Of a stretch of 21,874 nt of DNA, positions 19,393 through 21,874 are shown in pieces. The notes beneath the pieces are model-generated. The model was not told where the DNA came from, did no database searches, and saw nothing but the letters and a program-made list of their open reading frames with translations. The first letter of the stretch is position 1. Every line of letters begins with the position of its first letter. Both the position numbers and the translations under genes were made by a program. Source of the DNA: a virus; IMG/VR virus record IMGVR_UViG_3300021165_000541, positions 1-21,874 of that record. The stretch is one strand, 5' to 3'.

Positions 19393-20118
19393 ATGACTAT
19401 ACCTAAAATTGATGTGCCGATTTATGATATAACCTTGCCATCGACTGGCAAGACTATTAAGATTCGACCATTTGTGGTAAAAGAAGAAAAGCTTTTACTT
19501 ATGGCAATCGAATCAAAAGACAATGAGAATATCATCAAGACCACCAAGCAAGTGATCAATAACTGTATTATATCTGGTGATCTTGACCTAGAAAAGATGC
19601 CATTTTTTGATGTGGACTACCTGTTTATTGCCCTGAGAGCTAAGTCAATAGGCGAAAATATTGAGACTTCCTATGTGTGTAATAATATGGTGGATGGTAA
19701 TAAATGTGGTGGTGTATTTACAGCCAATATTGATATATCCAATTGTGTCATCGAAAAGAAAGATGATATTACCATGGATATTAACATATCAGGCAAGATT
19801 TCTATCAAGATGAAATATCCATCTTATTCTATCATGAAAATGATCACAGGCAATGAGAGTAATTTTCAAAAGAAAATACGAATTATTTCCAGCTGTATTG
19901 ACCGAATTACAAATGGCGATCAGACATATTCAAGTAAAGACTTCTCAAAGGAAGAATTGATAGAGTTTATTGAGGGTCTTACCAGTGAGCAATTCGTAAA
20001 GCTGGAAGCTTTTGTGGACAATCTACCCTCCTTTGTAATTGAATCTGGTGGAACATGCCCTAAGTGTGGATTCGAACATAAGGTTAAATATACGGACTTT
20101 ACCCGTTTTTTTCAATAA
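19393..20118 (+). CDS. gp26: Baseplate hub assembly protein gp26 (T4 baseplate family)
   Basis: The protein has 241 residues; T4 gp26 has about 208. The opening (PIYDITLPSTGKTIKIRPFV, VKEEKLLLMAIES, about 9-41) and DVDYLFIALRAKSIGENI (73-90) are typical of the gp26 family (Pfam T4_baseplate, by recollection). Four cysteines, Cys96 and Cys105 (CNNMVDGNKC) and Cys222 and Cys225 (CPKC), could bind zinc. The central KISIKMKYPSYSIMKMITGN and the C-terminal EFIEGLTSEQFVKLEAFVDN fit the same family. gp26 helps build the hub and is thought, from its position, to act like the tape-measure chaperones of other phages. AGAGGA lies about 9 bases before the ATG. Its last sense codons contain seven Ts in a slippery register, and the next ORF lies in the -1 frame. 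Confidence 0.87.
   Translation: MTIPKIDVPIYDITLPSTGKTIKIRPFVVKEEKLLLMAIESKDNENIIKTTKQVINNCIISGDLDLEKMPFFDVDYLFIALRAKSIGENIETSYVCNNMVDGNKCGGVFTANIDISNCVIEKKDDITMDINISGKISIKMKYPSYSIMKMITGNESNFQKKIRIISSCIDRITNGDQTYSSKDFSKEELIEFIEGLTSEQFVKLEAFVDNLPSFVIESGGTCPKCGFEHKVKYTDFTRFFQ
20106..20112 (+). other. Candidate -1 ribosomal frameshift site (T TTT TTT)
   Basis: Seven consecutive Ts end the codon CGT and fill the next two Phe codons (239 and 240) of gp26, in exact X XXY YYZ register. A -1 slip would read on TCA-ATA-ATG and enter the 65-aa frame with no intervening stop, giving a 307-residue fusion. ATAATG (20115-20120) can pair with CATTAT (20145-20150), but the stem is weak and close to the slippery site. 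The heptamer and the open -1 frame are seen; frameshifting is an inference. Confidence 0.5.
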
Positions 20119-20315
20119 TGCTTGGCCATGACAAACTAATGAATCATTATAAGACTAACTTTGCACTGATGCAGTTCCATAAGTATAGTCTAACCGAATT
20201 AGAGGGAATGATTCCTTGGGAAAGATTTATTTACGTTGATTTGCTCAAAGAACACCTAAAAGAACAAGAGCAGAAAAATCGTGACCGGGCAGCAACATTT
20301 AAAAAGAGAAGATAA
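20118..20315 (+). CDS. Small protein after gp26, candidate second tail-assembly chaperone (65 aa)
   Basis: The protein has 65 residues: a short polar start, then FALMQFHKYSLTELEGMIPW, FIYVDLLKEHLKEQEQKNRDR and a basic end (AATFKKRR). The layout, an aromatic-rich helix, a TELEGMIPWERF turn and a long charged helix, recalls the short downstream ORFs of G/GT- or E/E'-type tail chaperones, which are expressed by frameshifting. Its ATG overlaps the gp26 TAA by one base (TAATG), and there is no Shine-Dalgarno sequence, so translation should be by reinitiation or by -1 slippage at 20106-20112. It ends directly against the hydrolase ATG. Similarity to a named T4 protein such as gp51 could not be established by eye. 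Confidence 0.72.
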   Translation: MLGHDKLMNHYKTNFALMQFHKYSLTELEGMIPWERFIYVDLLKEHLKEQEQKNRDRAATFKKRR

Positions 20316-21874
20316 ATGGCATTTAATCTAGAAAATATGACAATTGATTATAAGAAAATGCTCCGCATGATACCATCGGATCGAACAACGCTGGCTCAAA
20401 GCGGTGCAATTAGTGATCTAATATCATCACTAACTCCTGGTCAATTGACTAATCTATTTCCTAGATACTACCGTGATCGTCTACCAGATGTTGGTAGAGC
20501 AGTTGCAACGGGTTCAGGTTCAACTCTTGGCGGTGCTTTATCTGGAGGAACATCATTTAGCGGTGGAGGTGGTACATATACAGCAGGCACAACAAAACCT
20601 CCTAAAAGCATTTCAGCAGAAGAAAAAGCAATTCAAGAGCTTTTTCAAAAAGCAAAAGTTGGCCAATATGCCGATTTACCTAAAGGTAAAATTGGATTAT
20701 ATAGACCAGCATATGGTTTGACAAACGCAGATTTAAGTGATGAAGTTATCCGAACAATTGCTGGTGAAGCTAGATTAAGCAGCAAAGAGGGCGTTGATGC
20801 TGTTATCAATGTTATGTTGAATAGAGTTGGCTCTGATCAATACGGTAGTAATTTGCTTGAAGTTGCTTCTCAAGGACAAGGCACTGGAGGCGTACAATTT
20901 GAAGGATTTAACAAAGGTAAAGTATCCGAAGAACAAGCGGAATATATTCGTCAAAGAATTAAAGTATTATCTTCTGGTGCTGCGCCCGACAATACTTTTG
21001 GAGCAAATGAATTCAGAGGTGACTATTATGTCTATGGACAAGGTAGAGGAAAAGATTTTTATAGAGATGCGGAAAAACAAGGATTTGTAAATATTGGAGG
21101 AAATATTTTTGCTGCTAGAGGAAACTATTCTGGACCTTACCAAGGATATGATCAGACTGAAGTGCAGGAAAGATTGCAGCAGATTGAGATAGAAAGTGCC
21201 TCGCAAAACATACAGACCATAGAAAAAGCTATGGGCAAATTTGAAGTTAGTATGGTTGATCAACTTGATGAGAGATTGAGAAATTACTATACAAATGCTA
21301 ATCCTATCCAAAAGAAAAACTTCGAAGAAGCTTTAGGAAAATTAGGTCCAGATCAATTTAATGAGACTATGAAGAGACAACCAATCAATTCTGCAACTCT
21401 CCAAGCCGCACCGGGATCTCCTCTAATGCTTCCTGTCGGAGGAAGTATGGCAGGTAAAAGTATCACATCTGAGGAATCTGTTCCATTTTCAGGAGGTGCA
21501 CCGGGTTCTAGATCATTTGGTGGTCCAAGAGGAACAAATCAACTTCATACTGGTGTAGATATTCCAGGTGCACCGGGTGATCCTGTAATCGCTGTTGATA
21601 ATGGCACTGTTGTTGGCATGAGAAAAAGTCCATCGGGATATGGTTATATTCTAGACGTTCAATATCCTGATGGCACTGTTCACAGAATGGCTCACTTGGG
21701 TCAAAATGGTGGTGGTGAAGAATCAGCTTATGCAGAAGGCTTGAAAGTTGGAGATACTGTATCTGCCGGACAACAGATAGGCATATTAGGATACTCAGGT
21801 AATGCTGGTCCAGAATTTCCACATGTACACTATGAAGTAATTAGACAAGACTATTATGAAGATACTCACGGAAG
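20316..21874 (+). CDS. Tail-associated cell-wall hydrolase with SleB and M23 domains (cut by right edge)
   Basis: At least 519 residues are present and the frame is open to the right edge. After a 70-residue start (IPSDRTTLAQSGAISDLISS) and a Gly-rich linker comes a SleB-type cell wall hydrolase domain, residues about 141-270, with DEVIRTIAGEARLSSKEG and VDAVINVMLNRVGS; Glu151 in the GEA motif is the likely catalytic residue. A Gln/Glu-rich helical region spans about 290-360. Residues about 390 to the edge are an M23 zinc endopeptidase with HTGVD (His411, Asp415), His460, and HVH (His503, His505), a full LytM ligand and catalytic set. The pair would cut peptidoglycan glycan strands and peptide cross-links. 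It follows the 65-aa gene with no gap (TAA-ATG), where other T4-like phages have hub or tape-measure genes. Being virion-borne rather than an endolysin is inferred from this context and the lack of a signal peptide. Confidence 0.87.
   Translation, partial: MAFNLENMTIDYKKMLRMIPSDRTTLAQSGAISDLISSLTPGQLTNLFPRYYRDRLPDVGRAVATGSGSTLGGALSGGTSFSGGGGTYTAGTTKPPKSISAEEKAIQELFQKAKVGQYADLPKGKIGLYRPAYGLTNADLSDEVIRTIAGEARLSSKEGVDAVINVMLNRVGSDQYGSNLLEVASQGQGTGGVQFEGFNKGKVSEEQAEYIRQRIKVLSSGAAPDNTFGANEFRGDYYVYGQGRGKDFYRDAEKQGFVNIGGNIFAARGNYSGPYQGYDQTEVQERLQQIEIESASQNIQTIEKAMGKFEVSMVDQLDERLRNYYTNANPIQKKNFEEALGKLGPDQFNETMKRQPINSATLQAAPGSPLMLPVGGSMAGKSITSEESVPFSGGAPGSRSFGGPRGTNQLHTGVDIPGAPGDPVIAVDNGTVVGMRKSPSGYGYILDVQYPDGTVHRMAHLGQNGGGEESAYAEGLKVGDTVSAGQQIGILGYSGNAGPEFPHVHYEVIRQDYYEDTHG

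Follow-up and report, generated by a model that had tools for sequence, protein, structure and literature searches.

The gp26-like gene of the window (the 21,874-nucleotide stretch of viral DNA analyzed here, which comes from an unclassified environmental T4-like phage) and the -1 reading frame extending past its end very probably encode a frameshifted pair of short and long tail-assembly chaperones, with a predicted slip on the heptamer T_TTT_TTT. An initial annotation of the DNA had proposed that gp26 plus a small downstream open reading frame (ORF) is the T4-like equivalent of a tail-chaperone pair, and this proposal is now supported by a slip site and -1 phase found in 240 of 240 relatives as well as by homology to T4 gp51.

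The gene for the short form (TAC-N) occupies 19393..20118 on the + strand and encodes 241 aa followed by a stop, with codons 238-241 and the stop reading CGT TTT TTT CAA TAA. The T_TTT_TTT heptamer is made up of the last base of codon 238 together with codons 239-240 (20106..20112, +) and lies in exact X_XXY_YYZ register in the 0 frame, ahead of the gp26 stop. Past the slip, the -1 frame stays open as far as 20312 and ends in a stop at 20313-20315, and the predicted product of a -1 slip is a fusion of 240+67 residues (307 aa). The post-slip residues of this 67-aa extension (TAC-C; 20112..20312, +) begin with SIMLGHDK. Within the same frame, the 65-aa ORF begins at the ATG at 20118, which is found inside a TAATG (20116..20120, +) where it overlaps the gp26 stop and could be a secondary reinitiation site. 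No Shine-Dalgarno-like sequence was found ahead of this ATG in the window. The initial annotation had the slippery register, the open -1 frame with its 240 + 67 fusion, the TAATG overlap, and the missing Shine-Dalgarno sequence right on every point. Among the genes of the window, gp26 is alone in having an in-register X_XXA_AAN or X_XXT_TTN within its last 12 codons, and just one other in-register T6 occurs in the window, at codon 3 of another gene.

Both parts of the predicted fusion have relatives among T4 hub proteins. gp26 matches Pfam PF12322 (T4_baseplate, E=2.9e-59) and PHROG 150 (baseplate hub, E=1.9e-61). For the 67-aa extension, the match is to PHROG 634 (baseplate hub assembly catalyst, T4 gp51 family; E=1.3e-25). 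The extension also matches positions 235-282 of PHROG 150, the last 48 positions of that profile (E=1.1e-5), which immediately follow the region covered by gp26. Because gp26 and the extension match adjoining parts of PHROG 150, this gp26 profile of PHROG has both parts joined in it. As judged by these profile matches, the extension is a homologue of the T4 gp51 C-terminus. An AlphaFold model of gp26 (pLDDT 85) had no credible match in the PDB, nor did a PDB sequence search with the gp26 and C-domain profiles return one; the C-domain itself was modeled with middling confidence as a helical hairpin (pLDDT 76.5). A relationship of the 65-aa protein to lambda gpT and P2 E', which the initial annotation had suggested looking for, was not detected when the C-domain profile was compared with single sequences of lambda T, P2 E', and HK97 using hhalign, a comparison of low sensitivity. 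In a separate observation, the gp26 proteins of marine cyanophages were found to lack the cysteine pairs of the zinc-ribbon-like segments present in the gp26 of the window (alignment A1).

Conservation of the slip site and of the frame relation carries most of the argument for frameshifting. A first scan with gp26 alone returned 79 loci, and an in-register T_TTT_TTY was found 3-4 codons before the gp26 stop in 78 of the 78 loci with a readable stop, each with a -1 frame that is open as far as the contig reaches. Two profile scans, one using gp26 and the other just the C-domain, together with a first group of annotated phages enlarged the set to 241 loci with both domains. One of these, from phage IME08 of the T4 group, has the domains on opposite strands and was left out. 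The remaining 240 loci carry both domains on the same strand, and every one of them, including those fetched from the C-domain side alone, has the C-domain in the -1 frame relative to gp26 and T_TTT_TTN in register. Four of the 240 have their gp26 stop displaced about 20 nt downstream with no matching displacement of the slip site. The initial annotation had named loss of the T run or of the -1 phase in relatives as the observation that would speak against its proposal; both are kept in 240/240 loci, and the flanking sequence varies.

Phe-Phe is near-invariant in gp26, and codon choice was therefore examined rather than the residues alone, using 171 non-redundant lineages (below 85% nucleotide identity). 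TTT serves as the first Phe codon in 171/171 lineages compared with 72% gene-wide, and the base before it is T in 171/171 where 102 would be expected. The residue preceding Phe-Phe varies (Ser, Asp, Asn, Ala, Arg or Phe), yet the third base of its codon is always T. A per-codon bias statistic peaks at slip codons -1, 0 and +1. The 171 lineages are not fully independent, such that the computed p-values overstate the strength of this bias, and no exceptions to it were seen. Between the window and 13 relatives, there are 0 differences in the heptamer versus 1 to 16 in the 30 nt upstream, and differences within the -1 frame are concentrated at the third positions of the -1 codons, which marks this frame as one under selection. 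As a control, a T6 motif was found in the last 12 codons of only 14 of 647 other ORFs of related loci (2%), as opposed to 171/171 for gp26. By these measures of codon choice, the slip site is conserved beyond protein constraint. A chance run of T was rejected on the basis of the 240/240 conservation, the codon choice, and the 14/647 control ORFs.

The form T_TTT_TTC, with six T residues followed by C, is found in 117/171 lineages, and the base after it is G in 106 of those 117 compared with 17% gene-wide. This G keeps Arg as the first residue of the -1 frame, and the 0-frame position is taken variously by Gly, Val, Ala, Glu and Asp; a 3' context effect on slippage would fit the pattern equally well as retention of Arg. 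The prevalence of T_TTT_TTC also bears on whether the fusion might arise by slippage of RNA polymerase on the T run rather than of the ribosome, as the homopolymer of seven T in the window could suggest. We give this reading only a very slim chance, since the majority of lineages have six T then C and strictly keep the register and the tRNA re-pairing rule. A run of six T is short for polymerase slippage.

Homopolymers are prone to error, and an indel introduced into the T run by sequencing or assembly could split what is really one gene. One case in line with this idea is Stenotrophomonas phage IME-SM1 (L265, about position 2215), where the junction has only five T, the annotated gp26 extends ~28 residues further, and the C-domain is in another frame relation; this junction may reflect a sequencing error or loss of the signal. 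For the family as a whole, an indel artefact is refuted by a frame relation shared across 240 records, some of them from cultured phages, and the probability of such an artefact in the window is negligible.

The initial annotation had also raised stop-start coupling as a competing idea. Here, ribosomes terminating at TAA would reinitiate at the overlapping ATG to make a free 65-aa protein, and the T run would be incidental. In accord with this possibility, the TAATG overlap is kept in the window and its clade (closest lineages L001-L021), and the annotators of Cr30, CZ01 and S-CRM01 called separate ORFs. However, start codons are missing in many relatives. In 69/171 lineages, no ATG, GTG or TTG occurs within 16 codons of the slip in the -1 frame, a span that covers the conserved LxHDxLxNYYKTN core; in 99/171 this span is without ATG, and all of these lineages retain the slip site. 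Because 69/171 lineages have no start before the conserved core, independent initiation of the second ORF cannot be general. The centring of the codon bias on the slip codons argues in the same direction, and we regard stop-start coupling as the source of the second product as highly improbable.

What survives of the competing idea is a possible second route in the TAATG clade, where reinitiation may add a free C-domain but cannot replace slippage. Slippage to the fusion and reinitiation to extra free C-domain are not exclusive, and their joint use in the window's clade would refine the frameshifting explanation. The slip site and TAATG are indeed jointly kept in lineages L001-L021. On the other hand, there is no Shine-Dalgarno sequence, and little can be read into the conservation of the ATG, which forms readily wherever TG comes after a TAA stop; we think the use of both routes unlikely. 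It is similarly doubtful that the clade makes a three-product chaperone set, in proportions set by the heptamer and, in sister lineages, also by an internal Shine-Dalgarno-like GAGGG located ~9 nt upstream.

Potential stimulators of the -1 frameshift were sought on both sides of the slip site. The initial annotation had seen only a weak stem downstream, and the 45-60 nt after the slip in the window accordingly fold no better than shuffled sequences (z +0.6 and +1.8). Across the family, downstream RNA structure was near background (mean z -0.15 to -0.97 versus about -0.4 at control offsets), and no conserved stem or pseudoknot was found downstream of the slip in either the window or the family. 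Upstream, a Glu-Gly pair five codons before the slip is encoded as GAG GGN in many relatives (68/107 GAG compared with 18/108 at Glu-Gly pairs elsewhere in gp26), resulting in a Shine-Dalgarno-like GAGGG ~9 nt upstream of the heptamer (for example in L055, L058 and L084). This codon choice points to GAGGG as a possible internal Shine-Dalgarno stimulator in those relatives; the element is absent from the window and its clade. A Shine-Dalgarno-like element upstream of a slip site is an arrangement known from dnaX.

The gene following the extension (20316..21874, +) is cut by the window end and encodes a large tail protein with cell-wall hydrolase (PF07486) and M23 peptidase (PF01551) domains. 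Its relatives range from 715 to 986 aa and have kept their N- and C-termini while their muralytic domains were swapped, and one of them matches the PHROG 9570 tape measure (E=3.5e-12) via its central domain. From these matches, the gene probably encodes a tape measure/tail lysozyme. Comparison with a related locus (L259, 855-3107) showed that the first 120 residues of the protein are 78% identical and that the cell-wall-cutting domains differ, with gp26 being 90% identical. As read from this comparison, the pattern looks like a modular enzyme swap inside a tail protein.

In the mechanism we propose, gp26 would serve as the short tail-assembly chaperone (TAC-N), and a minority of ribosomes arriving at T_TTT_TTT would slip back one base, with the P-site and A-site tRNA-Phe re-pairing on TTT TTT. 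The slipped ribosomes would bypass the TAA and continue for 67 codons, yielding a low-abundance long form (TAC-NC, 307 aa) with a gp51-like C-terminal domain. Going by lambda gpG/gpGT and P2 E/E+E', the probable role of the two forms while the tail tube is assembled is to coat and deliver the tape measure, the likely product of the next gene, and neither form is expected in the virion. We infer the occurrence of slippage, the product ratio, and the chaperone role, the last of these from homology and position.

The same arrangement, T_TTT_TTN and a C-domain placed in the -1 frame, was found in the sequenced phages S-PM2, P-SSM4, P-TIM40, ACG-2014d/e, Cr30, CZ01, AF3, V05, phiM7, S-CRM01, avDM6, PhiW-14 and XG4. 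The two ORFs were joined in none of the annotated T4-like records inspected, and the C-domain is unannotated in ACG-2014d/e and avDM6. Public records thus miss the frameshift, leaving the ORFs unjoined in the annotated T4-like records inspected and omitting the C-domain in several. Taken together, the findings support the view that tail-chaperone frameshifting is the rule among environmental and cyanobacterial T4-like phages. Ackermannviridae-type relatives (Vi01, VAP7, Kevin, D508 and Bue1; L264, L269, L271, L272 and L274) were also observed to have a C-domain-like ORF in the -1 frame of gp26, with the motif PWH/PWQ. The canonical heptamer is absent from the junctions of these five phages, which have NTT TTC or, in VAP7, GTT TTT.

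Both T4 gp26 and T4 gp51 are classed among the chaperones of hub assembly in PMC3004832, according to which the particle contains no gp51. Tail chaperone genes were assigned in T4-like phages by Vladimirov, Gautam & Davidson (2022, Virology 566:9-15), as cited in PMC12846349 and PMC10885494, and according to the citing text of PMC12846349 that study described poly-T -1 slip signals in the TAC-N genes of these phages. The window shares with that system a gp26 corresponding to TAC-N and a gp51-like domain corresponding to TAC-C, and it does not differ fundamentally from the system as the citing papers present it. Frameshifting of T4-like chaperones having thus been published in 2022, the window represents a further example, strongly supported by sequence comparison. 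The likeness extends to P2 E/E+E', where a -1 slip also occurs near the end of the short form, in P2 directly ahead of the tape-measure gene, and the annotated -1 site is T_TTT_TTG, although P2 E, a protein of 91 aa, has its slip 24 nt ahead of the stop and is unrelated in sequence at the sensitivity used. Lambda G/GT likewise consists of a short and a -1 frameshifted long tail chaperone, placed in lambda ahead of the tape measure, but it slips on GGGAAAG 21 nt before the stop and has a C-domain of 144 aa for which sequence homology was not detected. Some T4-like phages have separate short and fused genes instead, as summarized in PMC10885494. In Aeromonas phage 25 and IME08 of the T4 group, the N- and C-domains are homologous to those of the window, but gp26 lacks the slip site and gp26 and gp51 are separate genes on opposite strands, with gp51 combining a gp26-like N-domain and the C-domain in one frame. 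The two separate genes of T4 itself can be seen as an alternative arrangement to frameshifting.
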